A stretch of 36,118 bases of DNA from positions 1-36,118 of the forward strand of contig JAOUEE010000005.1 in NCBI GenBank assembly GCA_029858875.1. The letters are read 5' to 3'. Both the position numbers and the translations under genes were made by a program. Positions within the stretch are counted from its first letter, which is position 1; each line of letters starts with the position of its first letter. Shown piece after piece: positions 7,674 through 26,247 of the stretch. The notes under the pieces were generated by a model that saw nothing but the letters and a program-made list of their open reading frames with translations, made no database searches and was not told the origin of the DNA. Origin of the DNA: Acidimicrobiia bacterium (GTDB lineage Bacteria; Actinomycetota; Acidimicrobiia; Acidimicrobiales; SHLQ01).

Positions 7674-7769
7674 GACAGGGTCCTTCCTGTGCACTCCGCC
7701 CGCCGCGCGACCAAATACTAGCGACGGGCCGCGCGAATACCACCACGCACGGTGCGCGGATTTCGGGGC

Positions 7770-9392
7770 TCAGCTGGCGTCGACGGTGCGGGCCGCGCTG
7801 CGGCGCTCGGCGTCGAGTCGGCCCAAGGTGGGCTCCACCGAGTGATCGACGAACGACATCATCTCGGCGATGGCCTTGTGACCGGCCTGATCGGCGATGA
7901 GGCGGTGCATGTCCTGGCAGACGGCCCGGTACGCGGGGTGGCCTTGGGGGGTGGTGCGCAACTCGAGCATGTGCATGGCTTCGCGAGCGTTGAGCTGCAT
8001 CATGAATCGAACCTTGTAGGCCAACGACACGGCGTACACCGATTGATCGGGGAAGTGCTCGTCGAGCACGCCGTGGAGCTCGGCCGAGCGGTGCATGGCC
8101 TCGTCGAAGACGCCGGTCTGGCCAGCGGCATCGATCTCCGGGGGGCGGGTGTAGCCGTGGTGCGGTGCGAGGCGCTGCCAGTCGATGGTGAGCATGCGGT
8201 GGCGCTGGAGGTCGCGAAAGGCCCCGTAGTCGGCCAGGACGTCGAACCGGTAGGAGGGCCGCTCGAGACCACGACCAGGCTTGTGACGCCGGTTCTTGCG
8301 ATTCCCGACGTAGGCCCGCATCACCGACAGCCGATCGTCGACCGACATGGCCCGCACCCGCTGCTCGATCTGGCGTTCGGGCAGGTCGAGGTGGGGATAC
8401 AGCATGGCCGCCACCAGCTTGATCTCGGCATCGGGGTCGAAGTCGACCAACTCGACCTGCGCGGCGGGCAGCGGGGCCGGTTCATCGGCGAACAGCTCGG
8501 CGGTGACCCCCTCCATGGCGTCGCGGGTATCGCTGAGGTACTCGCTGGTGACCATGCCCCGGTCGGCCAGGTCGACGCGCTTGAGGAAGCTCGGAATGAC
8601 CTTGCGGAGCTCGTCGAGCATGAGGTCGGCGTAGCTACGGGCCTCGGGCAGGACGTGCGACCGCATGCGCAACAACAAGGCCTCGTAGGCCTGTCCGGTG
8701 CCGTAGATGCCGACGTTGGACAACGAGGCCGCCGGCAGGATGCCGCGTACCGAATCGAAGGCCCGGGCCCGGATGGCGGTGTGGTAGACGGTGTCGGGAT
8801 CGCTGGGGTCCTTGACCACGTGCTCGCGGTAGAAGTCGACCATGGCCGGAACCAGCTCGCTGTACGAGTCGAACAGGCGGTCCATGTCTCCCACGTAGCG
8901 GGTACCCAACGCCGAGGCCAGGATCTCGGGATCCCGGTAGTACCGATAACGCCCGCCGAGCCGCTTGTCGTAGCTGATGTAGCGGGTGGACTGCTCGAGG
9001 TACGAGGCCAACCGGCCCCACTCCAACACCTTGGTGAGCACATTGGACGCCTGCTCACAGGCCAGGTGCACCCCGCCCAGCTGGGCCACACTGTCGTCGC
9101 CGTACTGGAAGAACACCCGATCGTAGAGCTCCTCGGCTCGTCTGAGCCCGACGGTGGCGTCGATGGTCTCATCGCCGCTGATGTCGAGGTCGCCGACGAA
9201 TTCCTTCAGGAACAGGCGGCGCAGACTGAGCGAGGATCGCGAGTAGCGGGCGAACAAGGCCCCCTTGACCACCTCGGGCAGGTTGACGAGCGCGAAGACC
9301 GGCTGGTCGAGGTTGGTGAAGTAGCGACGGAGGATGTCGGCTTCATCGGAGGTGAATTCCTCGGCGACGTACGCAGTCACGGGCTCTGACAC
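7770..9392 (-). CDS. Tandem ThyX-fold protein (FAD-dependent thymidylate synthase homologue, two degenerate halves)
   Basis: 540 aa; N-half WGRLASYLEQSTRY and LPAASLSNVGIYGTGQAYEALLLRM; C-half LQRHRMLTIDWQRLAPHHGY and NAREAMHMLELRTTPQGHPAYR. Confidence 0.8.
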   Translation of the reverse strand: MSEPVTAYVAEEFTSDEADILRRYFTNLDQPVFALVNLPEVVKGALFARYSRSSLSLRRLFLKEFVGDLDISGDETIDATVGLRRAEELYDRVFFQYGDDSVAQLGGVHLACEQASNVLTKVLEWGRLASYLEQSTRYISYDKRLGGRYRYYRDPEILASALGTRYVGDMDRLFDSYSELVPAMVDFYREHVVKDPSDPDTVYHTAIRARAFDSVRGILPAASLSNVGIYGTGQAYEALLLRMRSHVLPEARSYADLMLDELRKVIPSFLKRVDLADRGMVTSEYLSDTRDAMEGVTAELFADEPAPLPAAQVELVDFDPDAEIKLVAAMLYPHLDLPERQIEQRVRAMSVDDRLSVMRAYVGNRKNRRHKPGRGLERPSYRFDVLADYGAFRDLQRHRMLTIDWQRLAPHHGYTRPPEIDAAGQTGVFDEAMHRSAELHGVLDEHFPDQSVYAVSLAYKVRFMMQLNAREAMHMLELRTTPQGHPAYRAVCQDMHRLIADQAGHKAIAEMMSFVDHSVEPTLGRLDAERRSAARTVDAS

Positions 9393-16512: not shown

Positions 16513-17436
16513 CTACAGGCGGCCGAAGGCGCCGAGGGGCCAGACCCGGAGCACGGCACGACCGACCATGAGGTCGGTGCTGACCGGCCCGAACGAGCGG
16601 CTGTCGACCGAGTTGCTGCGGTTGTCGCCCATCATGAACACATGGTCCGGTGGGACCTCGCAGGCGGAGCCATCGCCCTGCGGGTTGGCGCAACCCGATG
16701 ACCACACTCGACCGGCCGAAACCACCTCGGTGCCGATGTAGGGCTCGATCAGCCGCTGGTCGTCGATGAACAGGGTGTTGTCGCGGATGGCGATCGTCTC
16801 ACCCTCCAATGCGATGGTGCGCTTGATGAGCTCGTTCACGTCGTTGGTGGGAGCATTCGGCGGCCGCTCGAACACCATGAGGTCGCCCCTCTGCGGGCTC
16901 GTGTCCAGCTTGTACACCAGAATCCGGTCGTTCTCGTTCAGCGTCGGGGTCATCGACTCCGAGGGGATGTAGAAGGCCTGGAAGAGGAACGTCTTGATGA
17001 CCAGCGCCACGACCAGCGCACCGATGATGACAGCCGCCCACTCGATGGCGGACCGGACGCGAGGGTCGAGACCGGGAGAATCGTCGTCGTCGTCGGAGAA
17101 GAACTCGTCGATGGCTTCGTCGTCGTCCGGGAGATCGGCGGCGGGCCGGAAGCCCGGATCGTCGTAGATCGACCGGACATCGGGGGGTGTTCCGACGGCC
17201 ACCGCTTCGCCACCTGCGGACACGACCTGCGGCACCGAACCCCTGGTTTCGTCTGCCGGGGGCACGACCGGAACCGGGGTGTCGGGCGCCGCGGCTGGTG
17301 CGGGGGCAGGCGGTGCGGTCGTCATCGAGGGATCCGGTGACGGGTCCTGGCCACGAGCACGTGCCCGGGCTCGTGCCGCAAGCTTGGCGGCGAAGTCGGG
17401 GTCGTCCAGACTGGGACGCTGATCGTCTGAGGTCAC
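16513..17436 (-). CDS. lepB: Signal peptidase I with long disordered N-terminal extension
   Basis: TM helix then FYIPSESMTPTL (catalytic Ser), LIKRTIALEGET (catalytic Lys), FMMGDNRSNSVDSRSFGPV. Confidence 0.95.
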   Translation of the reverse strand: MTSDDQRPSLDDPDFAAKLAARARARARGQDPSPDPSMTTAPPAPAPAAAPDTPVPVVPPADETRGSVPQVVSAGGEAVAVGTPPDVRSIYDDPGFRPAADLPDDDEAIDEFFSDDDDDSPGLDPRVRSAIEWAAVIIGALVVALVIKTFLFQAFYIPSESMTPTLNENDRILVYKLDTSPQRGDLMVFERPPNAPTNDVNELIKRTIALEGETIAIRDNTLFIDDQRLIEPYIGTEVVSAGRVWSSGCANPQGDGSACEVPPDHVFMMGDNRSNSVDSRSFGPVSTDLMVGRAVLRVWPLGAFGRL

Positions 17437-17444
17437 TTCGGGCG

Positions 17445-17450
17445 ACCCTA
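17445..17450 (-). promoter_or_regulatory. Candidate -10 (TAGGGT) 8 nt before GTG of lepB
   Basis: TAGGGT-cgcccgaa-GTG. Confidence 0.5.
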
Positions 17451-17464
17451 CTCGTGGCGATGGG

Positions 17465-17502
17465 CGCTACCGGGTACAGGACCCGGAATTTCAGCGGTAG
17501 CG
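17465..17502 (-). terminator. Nested hairpins between pafC and lepB
   Basis: CCGGGT acagg ACCCGG inside/overlapping CGCTACCG...CGGTAGCG; right outer arm lies in the last pafC codons. Confidence 0.5.
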
Positions 17503-18432
17503 GGCCAGGATGCGACGGGCCGCGTCGGCGGTCAATCGATCGTCGAACCACCCCGAGTCGAGCACCTCCACGCTGGGACCCAGGCGCAGCAGCAGTCGCT
17601 CCAGCCACGATCGTCCGGTGACCGGCATGGCAACCTCGATGGACCCATCGGGTCGGGTGGTGACGCCGTTGTTGGGGTACTGATCGGCCACCCAGGCCGC
17701 CTCCGGGCGCAACAGAAGCCGCACCTCGGTGGTGTCGTCGGCCGAGAACACCGGCGTGGCATCGGGCGTGTCGGGCGGCGTGAAGCTGATGTCGGTGAGC
17801 GTAGCCGAACCGATCCGATCCACCCGGAACACCCGTTGATCCTCAGCCCGCCGGCAGAACGCGGCCACGTACCATTGGCCCTCGTCGGCGAAGAACCGGG
17901 ACGGCTCGATCCGACGTTGCACCCACTCGTCGCGGCTGTAGACGTAGTGATCGATGTCGACCATCCGGTGCTCGTCGACGGCCTGACGGAGCACAGCCAT
18001 GACCTCCTCGGCCCCCTCCCCCAGCCGCACCTGGAGCGGCACGGTGCCATCGCCGGCGCCCATCGCGGCGCCGAGTTTGGTGAGTCCCCGCAGCAACGGT
18101 CCGTCGTCGTCCCCGGTGATGGACAACATCGACTGACCGGCGGCCAGCAGCGCCACCGCCTGGGCCGGGTCCACCCGTAGCGGGCGGGTGAACCAGTCGG
18201 CGTAGCGGATCCACACCATGTCGTCGACGATCTCCACCTCGATGAGCGTGTCGGGGGTGAATGGGTACACCCCGACGTACTGGACCACTTCGAGGAGATC
18301 GGCCTCGAGGCGGTCACGGGGGTAGCCGAACCGGTGGGCCACGTCATCGAGGGCCACGCCGTCCTGGGCCACGACCCAGGGGATGACGGCCAGCAGCCGG
18401 TTGAGCCGCTCGCGGGAGGTGAATCGACTCAT
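17491..18432 (-). CDS. pafC: WYL-domain transcriptional regulator PafC
   Basis: HTH plus WYL domain (WYVAAFCRRAEDQRVFRVDRIGSATLTD); tandem with pafB downstream of pafA. Confidence 0.88.
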   Translation of the reverse strand: MSRFTSRERLNRLLAVIPWVVAQDGVALDDVAHRFGYPRDRLEADLLEVVQYVGVYPFTPDTLIEVEIVDDMVWIRYADWFTRPLRVDPAQAVALLAAGQSMLSITGDDDGPLLRGLTKLGAAMGAGDGTVPLQVRLGEGAEEVMAVLRQAVDEHRMVDIDHYVYSRDEWVQRRIEPSRFFADEGQWYVAAFCRRAEDQRVFRVDRIGSATLTDISFTPPDTPDATPVFSADDTTEVRLLLRPEAAWVADQYPNNGVTTRPDGSIEVAMPVTGRSWLERLLLRLGPSVEVLDSGWFDDRLTADAARRILARYR

Positions 18433-19349
18433 CGGATTCGTGCCTCCAGCCAGCGGGTCATGTCGTCGCGCAACTCAGCCGGCTCGAGGATCTCGGCGTG
18501 TTCGAGAAAGGTGAGGACGAACGACCGCAGAGCCTCCCTGTTGGTGACGTCGAGAGCGACCACCACCGATCCGTCATCGTGGGTGTCCACCACCGCGTCG
18601 GCCCCCAGATGGTGGGTGGCCCACGGCGCCTGGTCGGCATCGATCGCCACCAACGCCCGCACCGGCTCGTCATCACCCATCTGCCAGGCGGCCAGGCGGG
18701 ATGCGTCTCGCCGGGTGCTCGGTCTTGGCTCGGCGGCGGATCCCGTGTCGGTGACGTCGCCGAGGATGCGATCCACCCGGAACCGCCGTTCGGCCCCTCG
18801 AACCTGGTCGAATCCGGCCACGTACCACCGACCCTTGGCGAACGTGACCGTCCACGGCTCGAGCCGGCGGGTGTCGTCGCCGTAGCCGAAGGTGACGGCT
18901 CGAGCGTCCCGTGCCGCCGCGAACAGCGGGCCCAGCCCGGGGGGTGTGGGGAGATCGGCCACCGGTCCTTGTGCGCCCACCCCGGTGTCGACCAGACCGC
19001 CCAGCCGGCGCAGCGCATCCTCACCGTCCACTCCATCGAGCCGGACGAAGGTGGCCGCCAGGTGCAACGCGGCCAGCTCATCGGCCGCCAGCTGCGGGTC
19101 GGCGCCGGCGTACTCTCGGCGGTCGACCCGGTAGCCCTCGCGCGGCGGATCGGTCCCGGGAACCGGTGCCAGGGTGACCGGGATGCCCATGGTCCGCAGC
19201 TCGTCCTTGTCGCGCTCGAACGAGCGTTTGAACGCGTCGTCGCCGTCGGGATAGCCCTCGACGCGCTCGCGGATCTCCTCGATCAGCAGCGGCCGCGGCG
19301 TGTCGAGGAGGGCCGCGGTCAGGTTGAGGAGGCGTTCGAGCTTCGACAC
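18429..19349 (-). CDS. pafB: WYL-domain transcriptional regulator PafB
   Basis: SKLERLLNLTAALLDTPRPLLIEEIRERVEGYPDGDDAFKRSFERDKDELRTMGIPV plus WYVAGFDQVRGAERRFRVDRILG. Confidence 0.9.
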   Translation of the reverse strand: MSKLERLLNLTAALLDTPRPLLIEEIRERVEGYPDGDDAFKRSFERDKDELRTMGIPVTLAPVPGTDPPREGYRVDRREYAGADPQLAADELAALHLAATFVRLDGVDGEDALRRLGGLVDTGVGAQGPVADLPTPPGLGPLFAAARDARAVTFGYGDDTRRLEPWTVTFAKGRWYVAGFDQVRGAERRFRVDRILGDVTDTGSAAEPRPSTRRDASRLAAWQMGDDEPVRALVAIDADQAPWATHHLGADAVVDTHDDGSVVVALDVTNREALRSFVLTFLEHAEILEPAELRDDMTRWLEARIR

Positions 19350-19359
19350 GGCCGGCCGC

Positions 19360-20718
19360 TCACAGGGAGGCGATCAGCTTCTCGACCCGCTCGTCGTACG
19401 CCTTGAACGGGTCCTTGCAGAGCACGGTGCGCTGGGCCTGATCGTTGAGCTTGAGGTGCACCCAGTCGACCGTGTAGTCGCGCTTGCGTTCCTTGGCCCG
19501 ACGGATGAACTCGCCCCGTAGGCGGGCCCGAGTGGTCTCGGGTGGGTTCTCCACGGCATCGGCGATGTCGGAGTCGACACAGATCCGCTCGACCATGGCC
19601 TTCCTCTGCATCAGGTAGTACAGGCCCCGGTTGCGGTTGACGTCGTGGTATTGGAGGTCCAACAGACTGACCCGGGCATCGGACAGTGACAGGCCGTGTC
19701 GTTCGCGGTACCGCTCCACCAACTTGTACTTGATGACCCAGTCGCATTCGCGGTCGAGGTTCAGCGGATCCTTCTCGATCTGGGTGAGGCAGTGCTCCCA
19801 CATCGACAGTGCCTGGATCTCCAGCGGGCTCAAGGTGTGGTGCTCGGCGTAGCGCAGGGCCCGGTTGAGGTACTCGCTCTGGATCTCGAGCGCGCTGGCC
19901 TCACGACCGTTGGCCAATCGGACCCGGCGACGACAGGTCATGTCGTGGCTGATCTCGCGGATGGCCCGAATGGGGTTCTCGAGGGTCATGTCCCGCAGCA
20001 CGACGCGCGGCTCTTCGAGCATCCGCAACATGATGCTGGCTGCGCCCACCTTCAAGAAGGTGGCGTACTCGCTCATGTTGGAATCGCCCACGATGACGTG
20101 CAGCCGCCGGAACCGCTCGGCGTCGGCGTGGGGCTCGTCGCGGGTGTTGATGATCGGTCGGCTGCGGGTGGTGGCCGACGACACGCCCTCCCAGATGTGT
20201 TCGGCCCGCTGGCTGACGCAGTACATGGCGCCCCGGGCGGTCTGGAGGACCTTGCCGGCGCCGGCGTAGATCTGGCGACTGACGAGGAACGGGATCAGGA
20301 CCTCGGCGTAGGAACCGAAGTCGTCGCGGCGACTGGTGAGGTAGTTCTCGTGACACCCGTAGGAGTTGCCGGCCGAATCGGTGTTGTTCTTGAAGAGGAA
20401 GATGTCGCCGCGGATGCCCTCCTCCTGCAGCCGCTGCTCGGCCGACTCGAGCAGCTGCTCGAGGATGCGCTCGCCGGCCTTGTCGTGCACCACCAGGTCG
20501 TAGATGGAGTCGCACTCGGGGGTGGCGTACTCCGGATGGGAGCCGACATCGAGATACAGCCGAGCACCATTGGCCAGGAAGACGTTGGAGCTGCGACCCC
20601 ACGAGACCACCCGGCGAAACAGGTAGCGGGCCACCTCGTCGGGGCTGAGTCGACGCTGGCCGCGGAAGGTACAGGTCACCCCGTACTCGTTCTCGATGCC
20701 GAAGATCCGTCGCTCCAT
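19360..20718 (-). CDS. pafA: Pup--protein ligase PafA
   Basis: [38 protein letters not shown]...[18 protein letters not shown]...[12 protein letters not shown]. Confidence 0.97.
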
Positions 20719-20725
20719 CCCGATG

Positions 20726-20731
20726 AGGGTA
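20726..20731 (-). promoter_or_regulatory. Candidate -10 (TACCCT) 7 nt before ATG of pafA
   Basis: TACCCT-catcggg-ATG. Confidence 0.5.
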
Positions 20732-20741
20732 CTCGTCGGCG

Positions 20742-20764
20742 GTCGGCCAACGTGACAGGCCGAC
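20742..20764 (-). terminator. Hairpin between prcA and pafA
   Basis: GTCGGCC aacgtgaca GGCCGAC, perfect 7-bp stem. Confidence 0.45.
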
Positions 20765-20777
20765 GGGCGGAGCGCGC

Positions 20778-21455
20778 TCAGCCGATCAGCGCCGCCAGCT
20801 CGTCGCCCTCGATCCGTCGGAACGCCCGCCTACCGTTGCCGCGATCGAGCACGGCCACTTCGAGGTCCTCGGCGTGGAGCTCGCGGTCGGGTTCGGTGAG
20901 GCCGGCCACTGCGGCCGACAGCGCGTCGGGGAGGGACAAACCGGGCTGGTATCGCTCCTCGAACCGCTCCTGGATGGCCTTGGCGTCGCCGCCGAGCACC
21001 ACGTAGTCGGGGTGATCGCTGACCGAGCCGTCGTAGAGGATGTGGAACAGCTGATCCTCACCGTCGCTCTCGGCCAGCTCGGCCACCAGGATCTCCACCT
21101 CGAGCGGCTTCATCTCGTGGGTGAACACCTGGCCGAGGATCTGGGCGTACTGATTGGCCAGACTGCGGGCGTCCACATCCTGGCGGCTGAAGCTGTAGCC
21201 CTTCAGGTCTGCGTGGCGCACCCCGGCGATGCGCAGCTGGTCGAACTCGTTGTACTTCCCCACCCCGGCGAATCCGATGCGGTCGTAGATCTCGCTCACC
21301 TTGTGGAGCGTGCGCGACGGGTTCTCGGCGCACAACAAGATGCCGCCGGCGTACACCATGCCGATCAGGCTGCGACCCCGCGCGATGCCCTTGCGGGCAT
21401 AGTCGGCCATGTCGTTCATGCGCTGTTCGGGAGAGACGTAGAACGGCGTGCTCAC
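20778..21455 (-). CDS. prcA: Proteasome subunit alpha
   Basis: [51 protein letters not shown] overlap with prcB. Confidence 0.96.
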
Positions 21456-22285
21456 GACGGAGCCTTCTGCGAGAGGGCATTTCCGCCGTCGCTGCCGGCC
21501 GCCGCCGAGTAGCGGTCGATGAGCGCCCGGGTGCGCACGGCCAGGTCATCGTCGCTCACGCGGCTGAAGCCGTCGGCGTCGATGGTGGCGACCACCGGAT
21601 AGATGCCCCGGATGAGGTCCGGCAAGCCGCTGGCCGAGTCCTCGTCGGCAGCCTGGAAGAGGGCCTCGATGGCCAGGTCGATGACCGTCTCGCGGTCGAG
21701 GTCGTCCCGGAACTGGATCTTGATCACCGTGCCCGCGTGCAGGCTGCCCGACCCCGATGCGGCGTAGTCCCGCTCCTCGTAGCGGCCACCGGTGACGTCG
21801 TACTGGAACAGGCGCCCTTCGCCCCGGCCCTTGTCGTAGCCGGCGAAGATGGGCACCACGGCCAGGCCCTGCATGGCCGCCGGCAGGTTGTTGCGGACCA
21901 TCTGGCTGAGCTGGTTCGCCTTGCCCTCGAGGCTGAGGGCGTTGCCCTCGACCTTCTCGTAGTGCTCCAGTTGGAGCTGGAACAGGCGCACCATCTCCAC
22001 CGCCGGGCCGGCGGCGCCGGCGATGGCCACGCCCGAGTGGCGGTCGGCCTCGAACACCTTCTCGATCGATCGGTGGCTGATGAGGTGGCCCGACGTCGCT
22101 CGGCGATCGCCGGCGATCAGCGTGCCGGCGTCGTAACGGATGGCCACCACGGTGGTTCCGTGGGCCAGGGGGAACACGTCACCGACCGGGGTGTCGGGCA
22201 ACGGTGGCTCGAGATCGCTGGCTCGCAGCAGGCCGGTGAAGCTGGGGCCGGGATCGCGATCCGGCGAAAAGAGGGGAACGGTCAC
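21452..22285 (-). CDS. prcB: Proteasome subunit beta
   Basis: Propeptide ending ...FPLAHG|TTVVAIRYDAGTLIAGDRRATSGHLISHRSIEKVF with the catalytic Thr after Gly; GTG start. Confidence 0.97.
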   Translation of the reverse strand: MTVPLFSPDRDPGPSFTGLLRASDLEPPLPDTPVGDVFPLAHGTTVVAIRYDAGTLIAGDRRATSGHLISHRSIEKVFEADRHSGVAIAGAAGPAVEMVRLFQLQLEHYEKVEGNALSLEGKANQLSQMVRNNLPAAMQGLAVVPIFAGYDKGRGEGRLFQYDVTGGRYEERDYAASGSGSLHAGTVIKIQFRDDLDRETVIDLAIEALFQAADEDSASGLPDLIRGIYPVVATIDADGFSRVSDDDLAVRTRALIDRYSAAAGSDGGNALSQKAPS

Positions 22286-22291
22286 GCTGGC

Positions 22292-22297
22292 AGGCTA
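22292..22297 (-). promoter_or_regulatory. Candidate -10 (TAGCCT) 6 nt before GTG of prcB
   Basis: TAGCCT-gccagc-GTG; no SD seen. Confidence 0.45.
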
Positions 22298-22298
22298 T

Positions 22299-22311
22299 CG
22301 GGCGTCGCCCG
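22299..22311 (-). other. Short GC hairpin between pup and prcB
   Basis: CGGGC gtc GCCCG, 5-bp stem with 3-nt loop. Confidence 0.35.
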
Positions 22312-22359
22312 GACCGCCGATGAGCGCGAACGACGGCGCGCTCGTCCGACCGGCGTCGG

Positions 22360-22557
22360 TCACTCGCCGCCCTTCTGGATGTAGCTCTTCACGAAGTCCT
22401 CCGCATTGGTCTCGAGGACCTCGTCGATCTCGTCGAGGAGGTCGTCGAGCTCGCTCTTGAGCTTCTCGCCGGTGTCGGACGAGGCGGGTGCCTCGTCTTC
22501 GACGACCTCGTCGCTCTCGGTGGGAGCACTTCGTTTGATCTGTTCGCGTTCAGCCAT
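22360..22557 (-). CDS. pup: Prokaryotic ubiquitin-like protein Pup, C-terminus GGE
   Basis: 65 aa, ...SELDDLLDEIDEVLETNAEDFVKSYIQKGGE; SD GAAGGAGAACGCC-ATG. Confidence 0.97.
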   Translation of the reverse strand: MAEREQIKRSAPTESDEVVEDEAPASSDTGEKLKSELDDLLDEIDEVLETNAEDFVKSYIQKGGE

Positions 22558-22574
22558 GGCGTTCTCCTTCGGTC

Positions 22575-22591
22575 ACCCGCGACCTGCGGGT
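22575..22591 (-). other. Hairpin between dop stop and pup Shine-Dalgarno
   Basis: ACCCGC gacct GCGGGT, perfect 6-bp stem starting in the dop stop codon, followed by GAAGGAG and pup ATG. Confidence 0.45.
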
Positions 22592-24093
22592 CAATGCTGC
22601 AGTCGATCGATGAGCTCGGCCGGGGTCTGACATTCATCCAACAAGGTACCGACGTGCGCCTCGGTCCCGCGCGTCGGTTCCATCATCGGTACCCGGCGCA
22701 AGGGATCCTCGCCCACGTCGAACACCATCGAATCCCAGTTGGCGGCGACGATCGAGCCCGACCATCGCTTGAGGCACTCGCCTCGGAAGTAGGCGCGCGT
22801 ATCGAGTGGCGGGTCGACCATGGCCGGGCGGGCGGCGGCATCGTCGACCAAGCGCTCGTGGGGCAGACGCTCGAACAGCGACTTCTCGGGTCGCAGGTCG
22901 TGGTACTGGATGCCCATGGCCGCCAACCGGGCGTCGTCCCACGCCAGCTGGTGGCGTTCCCGGTAGCCGGCCAGCAACTGGTACTTGGTGACCCAGTCGA
23001 CCTGTCCGGCCAGGCTCATGGGATCACGCTCGAGATCGGTGAGGACCTGCTCCCAGCGGTCGAGGACCAGCAGTGCGGGGTCACCGCCCAGCGCTTCGGT
23101 GCCCCGTTCCTCGGCGTACTTGCGCGACCGCTCGTACAGTTCCCACTGCACCTCCAGGGCGGTGACGCTGGAACCGTCATCGAGTCGCAACGGCACCGAC
23201 AGACTCAGGTCGTGCGACACCTCACGCAGCGCCTCGACGGGGTTGGCGAAGCGGATCTCGGTGGGCAGCAGGTCGTCCTCGATGAGGGTGAGGACGAAGC
23301 CGGTGGTGCCCACCTTGAGGAAGGTGGCGACCTGGCAGAGGTTGGCATCGCCCACGATCACGTGCAGCCGCCGGTACTTCTGCGGGTCGGCGTGGGGCTC
23401 GTCGCGGGTGTTGATGATCGGTCGTTTGAGTGTGGTCTCGAGGCCGACCTCCTCCTCGAAGAAGTCGGCCCGCTGGGTGAGCTGGAAGGCGACCTCGTCG
23501 TTGGCGCGGCCCATGGCCTCGACCCCGACCTTGCCCGCTCCGGTGAAGATCTGGCGGGTGATGAAGTGGGCGGTGGCATGGACGACGATGCGGCCGAAGG
23601 GACAGGTGCGGTCCATCAGGTAGTTCTCGTGGCACCCGTAGGAGTTGCCCTTGCCGTCGGAGTTGTTCTTGTAGACCACCAGCTGCTGATCGGGGGGAAG
23701 CAACGATCGGGCCGCGGTCATCGATTCGATGGCGATGAGATCACCGGCGCGGTCATAGAGCACGGCGCTCAGGGCGTCGGCCACCTCGGGAGAGGACATC
23801 TCGGGATGGGCGTGGTCCACGTAGTAGCGGGCCCCGTTGGTGAGTACCGCGTTCACCAGGTGAGTCTCCACCTCGGGGGGCATGGCGCCGAGCGGCGTGG
23901 GGCCGCGAGCATCGTTGCCCGGCATCTCGTCCTCGAAGTCCCAGCCCACCCGGCGGGGCGGCCCGTTGCCCTCACTGGTGCTGAGATACGCGTTGATCAG
24001 CAGCGAGGAGGCGGCGATGGGGTTGCCGTCGTCGGCCCCGCGCAGCACGATCCCGTACTCCGTCTCGAGACCGAACGTCTTCTTGATCGCCAT
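22591..24093 (-). CDS. dop: Dop (depupylase; Pup deamidase homologue)
   Basis: FGLETEYGIVLRGADDGNPIAASSLLINAYLS...WDFEDEMPGNDARG (Dop loop) ...[21 protein letters not shown]. Confidence 0.96.
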   Translation of the reverse strand: MAIKKTFGLETEYGIVLRGADDGNPIAASSLLINAYLSTSEGNGPPRRVGWDFEDEMPGNDARGPTPLGAMPPEVETHLVNAVLTNGARYYVDHAHPEMSSPEVADALSAVLYDRAGDLIAIESMTAARSLLPPDQQLVVYKNNSDGKGNSYGCHENYLMDRTCPFGRIVVHATAHFITRQIFTGAGKVGVEAMGRANDEVAFQLTQRADFFEEEVGLETTLKRPIINTRDEPHADPQKYRRLHVIVGDANLCQVATFLKVGTTGFVLTLIEDDLLPTEIRFANPVEALREVSHDLSLSVPLRLDDGSSVTALEVQWELYERSRKYAEERGTEALGGDPALLVLDRWEQVLTDLERDPMSLAGQVDWVTKYQLLAGYRERHQLAWDDARLAAMGIQYHDLRPEKSLFERLPHERLVDDAAARPAMVDPPLDTRAYFRGECLKRWSGSIVAANWDSMVFDVGEDPLRRVPMMEPTRGTEAHVGTLLDECQTPAELIDRLQH

Positions 24094-24102
24094 GCGCGCG
24101 CC

Positions 24103-24108
24103 AACCTA
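24103..24108 (-). promoter_or_regulatory. Candidate -10 (TAGGTT) 9 nt before ATG of dop
   Basis: TAGGTT-ggcgcgcgc-ATG. Confidence 0.45.
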
Positions 24109-24124
24109 GCTTCCCCGGGTGACA

Positions 24125-24140
24125 TTCCCGTGTTCCCGTG
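24125..24140. repeat. Perfect tandem 8-mer TTCCCGTG x2 upstream of dop
   Basis: attcccgtgttcccgtgagc; overlaps the expected -35 area of the dop candidate promoter. Confidence 0.6.
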
Positions 24141-24209
24141 AGCGCCGAACCCGGCCGGGCGCTGGTCGGCGCCTGGCCGCCGGCAAGCGCCGCGCGGAGA
24201 GTGGGCCGG

Positions 24210-25964
24210 TCAGAGGTATTGGCCGGTGCCGACCCGTTCGATGCTGCGCCCGCCGCCCGGTGCGGAGTCCTCGCCGTGCGACACCAGGGTGCGCACGTAG
24301 ACGATCCGCTCGCCCTTCTTGCCCGAGATCTTGGCCCAGTCGTCGGGATTGGTGGTGTTGGGCAGGTCTTCGTGCTCGCGGAACTCCTGCGCCACCGCGT
24401 CGAGCAGGTCGTCGGTTCGGATGCCACGGGTACCGCCGCCGAGGATGCGTTTGATGGCCAGCTTCTTGGCCCGGCGGACCACGTTCTCGATCATGGCCCC
24501 CGAGGAGAAGTCCTTGAAGAACATGACCTCCTTGTCGCCGTTCTGGTACGTGACCTCGAGGAAGCGGTTCTTGTCGTCTTCGCGATACATGTCGACGACG
24601 GTCTCTTCGATCATGGCCTGGATGGCCTTGTTGGGATCGCCCCCGCCGAGTGTGGACACCACGTTGTCGTCGATGGGCACGGCGTCGGTGAGGTAGCGGC
24701 CGAAGATGGCCGTGGCCGCGGTTTCGTCGGGTCGCTCGATCTTGATCTTCACGTCGAGGCGGCCGGGGCGCAGGATGGCCGGATCGATGAGGTCTTCGCG
24801 GTTGGACGCGCCGATGACGATGACGTTCTTGAGCGTCTCGACGCCGTCGATCTCGGCCAGCAGCTGGGGGACGATGGTTGATTCGATGTCGGAGCTGATG
24901 CCTGATCCACGGGTGCGGAACAACGACTCCATCTCGTCGAAGAACACGATGATGGGCCAACCCTCGTCGGCCTTCTCGCGGGCTCTCTGGAAGACCAGGC
25001 GGATCTGGCGCTCGGTCTCGCCGACGTACTTGTTCAGCAGCTCGGGGCCCTTGATGTTGAAGAAGAAACTGCGGGCATCGGCGTTGCCGGTGGACTCGGC
25101 CACCTTCTTGGCCAGGCTGTTGGCCACCGCCTTGGCGATCAACGTCTTGCCGCAGCCGGGTGGGCCGTAGAGCAGGATGCCCTTCGGAGCGGGCAGATGG
25201 AACTCGCCGAAGAGATCCTGATGGAGGAAGGGCAGCTCGACGGCGTCGGTTATCTGCTCGATCTGGTCGTCGAGGCCGCCGACATCGTCGTAGGTGACAT
25301 CGGGAACCTCCTCGAGTACCAGTTCCTCGACCTCGGGGCGGGGCAACCGCTCGAGCAGGACCGAGGCTCGGCCGTCGATGAGCACATGATCGCCTGATCG
25401 CAGGGTCTTCGGCGGCACCTGCGCAGCCACGTCGACCACCCGCTCCTCGTCGGCCCGCCCCACGATGATCGCACGGCCATCGCTGAGCACTTCCTTGAGG
25501 GTGGCGATGTCGCCGGTGGTGTCGGCGCTGCGGGACAACACGATGTTGAGGGACTCGTTGAGGGCCACCTCCTGTCCCGGTTCGAGGGTGCCGTCCAGGT
25601 CGGGGTGCACCGCCACGCGGAGCTTGCGGCCCGCGGAGTACACGTCGACGGTGTCGTCGTCGTTGCACCCGAGCACGGTGCCGTAGGCCGAAGGAGGCAG
25701 GGTGAGCTTCTCCACCTCTTCGCGCAACGCCGTGATCTGTTCTCGGGCCTCCCGCAGGGTGTAGGTGAGCTTCTCGTTCTGGGACACGGCCTGGGACAGC
25801 TGTCCCTTCGTCTCGAGGAGCCGTTCCTCGAGCGTGCGTACCCGCTTGGGCGCGTCCTGGAGACGCTGGCGGAGGGTGGCGATCTCTTCTTCGAGGTCTC
25901 GGGCCTGGAGCTGGAGAGCGCGTAGCTCGGCTTCGAGTCGCTGCTGCTCGTTGACGGCAACCAC
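24210..25964 (-). CDS. arc: Proteasome-associated AAA+ ATPase ARC/Mpa
   Basis: Coiled coil, OB domain, Walker A GPPGCGKT, Walker [12 protein letters not shown]-terminal GQYL docking motif. Start uncertain: GTG 25964 assumed; ORF track begins at 26078. Confidence 0.94.
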
Positions 25965-26247
25965 CTCCTGGCGTCTGGCCCGATCGGGCGATTCGATGAC
26001 CCTACACGTCCCATTGTCGGCATCGGTGACGCCCCCGATGAGGAAACGACTGGTGATCCCCGGGCCTCCAGCCCCCATGTCGGCCCCACTCCGATGCAGC
26101 CCGAGCCGGGCTCACCGCTAGAGTGCAGCGAGACGGCCGCGTGCGGTCCGCGATCGGTCGTCGCCGGTTTCATACAGTTCCGGTGGCGCCTGGCCGATGG
26201 AGTCACGGCGGCAATCGACATCCCACGGAAAGAGTGAGCAAAACGCG

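Follow-up and report, generated by a model that had tools for sequence, protein, structure and literature searches.

A domain-duplicated ThyX with FAD-side and dUMP-side residues divided between its two halves, the probable thymidylate synthase of an Acidimicrobiia bacterium

The 36,118-nucleotide stretch of Acidimicrobiia DNA analysed here (the window) encodes a protein with two Thy1 domains in one chain, that is, a domain-duplicated or double ThyX. Taken together, the sequence and genome evidence indicates that this protein is probably the thymidylate synthase of the organism. We consider it very likely that the fused protein serves as the flavin-dependent thymidylate synthase by means of composite sites to which both halves contribute. 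The features of the gene and of its two halves are collected in Table 1.

Table 1. Features of the double ThyX gene and its product (positions in the window; residues of the encoded protein; Mtb, M. tuberculosis ThyX).
Feature	Residues	Position	Strand	Remarks
Double ThyX gene		7770..9392	(-)	GTG start, 540 aa; orthologues in 56/59 genomes of the order
N-half Thy1 domain	84-268	8589..9143	(-)	Pfam PF02511
C-half Thy1 domain		7890..8441	(-)	Pfam PF02511
N-half GDDSVAQ	98-104	9081..9101	(-)	S101 aligns with Mtb S71; invariant 92/92 and 43/43
N-half signature WGRLASYLEQSTRY	125-138	8979..9020	(-)	E133, S135, R137, Y138 kept; R95-H96 replaced by W-G
N-half RGILP	216-220	8733..8747	(-)	conserved ThyX R-x-x-L-P motif; R216 in 43/43 N-halves, Arg missing from C-halves
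N-half second motif GTGQAYEALLLR	231-242	8667..8702	(-)	degenerate; Q234 aligns with Mtb R190
C-half NRRHKPGRGLER	367-378	8259..8294	(-)	subfamily motif; R374 (92/92) in place of the Ser aligned with Mtb S71
C-half signature RHRMLTIDWQRLAP	397-410	8163..8204	(-)	RHR kept (92/92), E/S/R/Y lost
C-half second motif NAREAMHMLELR	468-479	7956..7991	(-)	intact; R470 = Mtb R190, R479 = Mtb R199

The reading frame was uninterrupted by stops and had a GC content by codon position of 0.68/0.42/0.89. Membership of the Thy1 family (PF02511) held for the whole protein (117 bits) and for each half alone (~60 bits), against a gathering cut-off of 24.8, which bears out the original prediction of a double ThyX-fold protein at this locus. 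The TIGR02170 equivalog cut-off was not reached (44 vs. 87.9 bits). Profiles built from the N-half and the C-half showed no direct similarity to each other, yet both matched ThyX. Canonical ThyX/FDTS (Thermotoga maritima TM0449, M. tuberculosis, H. pylori; PF02511, TIGR02170) is a single chain of 200-300 aa with the complete RHR...S.RY signature, and its homotetramer has four equal sites. The double ThyX shares with it the fold, the FAD-side and dUMP-side residues, and a genome pattern without ThyA and DHFR, whereas its signature is split between two fused halves that, in the window protein, are about 16% identical to each other.

Structure prediction for the monomer gave a pLDDT of 78 and a pTM of 0.80, and the weakest, low-confidence parts of the model included residues 98-106 and 133-135; these loops may become ordered only in the oligomer. 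In a fold search of the PDB, all 50 matches listed were either ThyX or the related PolB. When the PDB was searched by sequence, the single sequence had no match and the profile matched H. pylori ThyX alone (E 0.006), and no solved structure of a double ThyX was found in this way.

Residues characteristic of ThyX were distributed unevenly over the two halves. Specifically, the N-half retained the nucleotide-side residues E133, S135, R137, Y138, and R216, and the C-half retained the FAD-side residues R397-H398-R399, R470, and R479. In an alignment of 92 full-length double homologues, the N-half residues S101, S135, R137, Y138, and R216 and the C-half residues R374, R397-H398-R399, R470, and R479 were each present in 92/92. 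No N-half among the 92 contained RHR; the corresponding positions read WGR (83), RGR (5), RPR (3), or WSR (1). The original prediction had described an N-half that keeps S..E.S.RY and loses RH and a C-half that keeps RHR and loses S..RY, and both descriptions agreed with residues 125-138 and 397-410 and with the 92-homologue alignment. It had also paired the later motif, NAREAMHMLELR in the C-half with GTGQAYEALLLR in the N-half; the positions were correct, but the ungapped pairing was not, as a one-residue gap is needed and the Arg of N-x-R then aligns with Q234.

The comparison was widened to 43 diverse doubles, drawn from other Actinomycetota, Chloroflexota, plasmids, and jumbo phages, and 29 single ThyX proteins, with the columns invariant in the singles scored for each half. 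A single-ThyX HMM put many C-half rows out of place, and a merged alignment was adopted instead. The columns invariant in single ThyX divided cleanly between the halves. Those retained solely in N-halves were S101, S135, R137, Y138, R216, and E250 (the last in 42/43). The S..R-Y residues were always in the N-half and R-H always in the C-half (43/43), and this direction was never reversed. R397 and H398 were found together in 43/43 C-halves; among N-halves, seven had the first-position R and one (L177) had the second-position H, never both. R399 and R479 were likewise present in 43/43 C-halves and were also retained in 33/43 and 27/43 N-halves, respectively. The S.RY stretch was deleted or replaced in 43/43 C-halves. 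No homologue examined contained the contiguous RHR-x7-S-x-R-Y of canonical ThyX in one domain, the N-half reading WGR...S.RY and the C-half RHR without S.RY. The arrangement defined in this analysis, FAD-side residues in the C-half and dUMP-side residues in the N-half, was found in 92/92 and in 43/43. Judging by their motifs, L177 (N-half QHR) and L178-L183 (N-half GHxSVAEH and NAR kept) look like less decayed states.

The published assignment of active-site residues to chains in M. tuberculosis ThyX provides a framework for this partition. In one site of that enzyme, subunit A gives RHR95-97 and R199, subunit B gives S71 and R190, and subunit C gives the Q103 backbone, R87, S105, R107, and the Y108 lid (PMC6514825). 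In the 43 doubles, the subunit-A residues RHR and R199 mapped to the C-half (43/43) and the subunit-C residues S105, R107, and Y108 to the N-half (43/43), with R-H, S, R, and Y reciprocally missing from the opposite half. A pocket formed by a C-half and an N-half would therefore have both FAD-side and dUMP-side residues, and one centred on the N-half WGR would have neither. The subunit-C residue R87 corresponds to N117 in the N-half of the window protein. As for subunit B, the counterparts of S71 are S101 (N-half) and R374 (C-half), and those of R190 are Q234 (N-half) and R470 (C-half). Other lineages have Arg at the R190 position of the N-half, and loss of this Arg was complementary (N only 9, C only 23, both 10, neither 1, of 43). 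Because S71 has its counterpart only in the N-half and R190 here in the C-half, the subunit-B role could be filled by one half only with a substitution (Q234 or R374).

These observations can be joined into a working scheme. Two chains would pair, so that the dimer is a pseudo-tetramer. FAD would be held by a C-half via RHR, R470, and R479, and dUMP would be bound by an N-half via E133, S135, and R137, with Y138 closing the lid. As in ThyX, methylene-THF would donate its one-carbon unit, which FADH2 would then carry to dUMP. Of the four ancestral sites, the two built around the N-half WGR would be dead, so that each dimer would have two composite sites. The idea that the fused halves rebuild a composite site, already put forward in the original prediction, thus draws strong support from the sequence and genome evidence and fits the published chain assignment. 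We regard as rather unlikely an extended form of the scheme, a regulated asymmetric ThyX in which the two composite sites are catalytic and the cavity of the two erased sites has been reused, via the subfamily NRRHKPGR motif, as a dedicated NADPH, folate, or effector pocket.

The genome context of the double ThyX was also investigated. In its own genome (94% complete), neither ThyA nor another ThyX was found, which answers the call of the original prediction for a check on a separate thyX or thyA and leaves the double ThyX as the sole thymidylate synthase candidate. Among the 59 genomes of the order, ThyA and DHFR (PF00186) were each found in none, and an extra single ThyX in one. DHFR absence is the classical ThyX-only pattern (PMC1971073). 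Thymidine kinase was present in 25/59 genomes and missing from 34; a homologue is encoded in the window's own genome, where salvage may therefore still operate. Acidimicrobiales orthologues matched at 55-83% identity over nearly full length in 56/59 genomes, a count that includes a few partial matches at contig ends and one of only 39% identity. Given the missing ThyA and DHFR and the order-wide presence of the double, the protein likely carries out thymidylate synthesis. Among the relatives, L086 (G012:C73:67387-68034) alone encoded a single canonical ThyX in addition to the double.

Of the 150 Actinomycetota genomes sampled, 44, belonging to several classes, had a double as counted by two Thy1 matches. 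None of these 44 had a single ThyX and one had a short thyA fragment; across the phylum, the double and single forms substitute for one another. In Chloroflexota, doubles were found in roughly 23/61 genomes, and those fetched showed the N/C motif partition. They also occurred in the jumbo phages Tunturi_5 and Vibrio Yong and on large plasmids of Euzebya, Miltoncostaea, Parabacteroides, Bacillus, and Paenibacillus, the plasmid proteins being named FAD-dependent thymidylate synthase in RefSeq. In a tree of the halves, all N-halves fell on one side of a branch and all C-halves on another (SH-aLRT 99 each), with the caveat that the N and C groups were pre-aligned before merging and that branches were long. 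Because N-halves and C-halves each form one group, the tree suggests a single fusion followed by long purifying selection on both halves.

Other explanations were weighed against the composite-site ThyX. It is improbable that the C-half alone is catalytic, holding FAD and performing the whole reaction with new residues in place of S.RY while the N-half serves as a structural or regulatory copy. The C-half does have the FAD-side residues and its own subfamily motifs (NRRHKPGR, WQxL); however, N-halves without exception retain R216 together with S135, R137, and Y138, which handle the substrate in ThyX, even in jumbo-phage homologues of ~23% identity. A purely structural copy would not need these invariant residues, which argues against such a role for the N-half.

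A shift to different flavin or methyl-transfer chemistry, such as the UMP reaction of PolB, with dTMP obtained from elsewhere, seems very improbable. The missed thyX equivalog cut-off and the thymidine kinase homologue in the window's own genome would be compatible with it, as would the presence of PolB, the UMP/dUMP methylase of Streptomyces cacaoi, among the fold neighbours. PolB is a solved single chain of 234 aa listed for UMP/dUMP, and the double ThyX showed no sign of that role. Against a different reaction stand the lack of ThyA and DHFR in all 59 genomes, most of which also lack thymidine kinase (34/59), the order-wide conservation of the double, and its exchange with single ThyX across Actinomycetota. 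The new flavin chemistry that had been offered as an alternative in the original prediction found no positive support and is not needed. Finally, the fusion or its motif pattern might have been an assembly artefact, a pseudogene, or chance, given that the draft genome behind the window is fragmented (547 contigs) and that a long mirror ORF lies on the opposite strand. This explanation is already refuted: the identical architecture occurs in complete genomes and in many independent assemblies, without stops and with invariant motifs.

The double ThyX is a variant of ThyX whose duplication was already known; an account of the motif partition was not found in the literature searched. The ThyX of C. 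trachomatis (CT632) is also of double length, at about 530 aa. The purified chlamydial enzyme has been assayed by an NADPH oxidation assay (PMC3498832), and if it shares the partition, the chemistry of double ThyX is already supported by existing biochemistry. Our search on duplicated ThyX, which covered mainly open-access papers, returned only a 2009 remark and neither the motif partition nor the composite-site logic. That remark (Valas and Bourne 2009, PMC3224940) concerns an uncharacterised domain-duplicated ThyX in Chloroflexi and a small number of other species. The architecture is the same as that of the window protein; the remark gives no residue partition or mechanism, and the distribution found here is far wider than the few other species it mentions. 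In this order-wide and apparently essential enzyme, the FAD-holding and dUMP-holding parts of ThyX lie on two covalently joined domains. Each part can thus be mutated independently, a separation that the homotetramer does not allow, and the split may help to place the folate and NADPH steps, which are still under debate. The double ThyX also illustrates clearly how duplicated copies can decay in complementary ways.

Several further observations were made among the homologues. L167, a double 45% identical to that of the window, comes from a Parabacteroides distasonis plasmid record of 278 kb, a host remote from the others. A very divergent double in Vibrio jumbo phage Yong MS32 (L173:1342-2727, +) is annotated as a hypothetical protein. 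Acidimicrobiia-type doubles (71-74% identity) appeared under Bifidobacterium breve MAG titles (L040, L045, L080), which look mislabelled. For one Actinomycetota genus, three genomes (G067, G108, G130) yielded no thymidylate synthase candidate apart from a single weak PF02511 match. PF02511 proteins of a third kind, ~290 aa with NTHRAFSRN..SSRA (PHROG 85), were encoded at L199:1504-2409 (+) and L198:224-1099 (-). Their sequence order seems to be that of a circular permutation, with the canonical N-terminal stretch (..SPLEH) placed after the C-terminal one; as the match to the second profile is weak, we regard this as a lead.

Within the window, the strand opposite the double ThyX gene contains an ORF of 545 aa (7752-9389, +), which probably mirrors the high-GC coding sequence. 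The neighbouring genes (M20 peptidase, LysM protein, helicase, TatC, and Pup-proteasome genes) were uninformative. The Pup-proteasome locus spans 16513-26078 and contains two Pup-ligase family genes, a proteasomal ATPase, and two PafBC-type WYL regulators.
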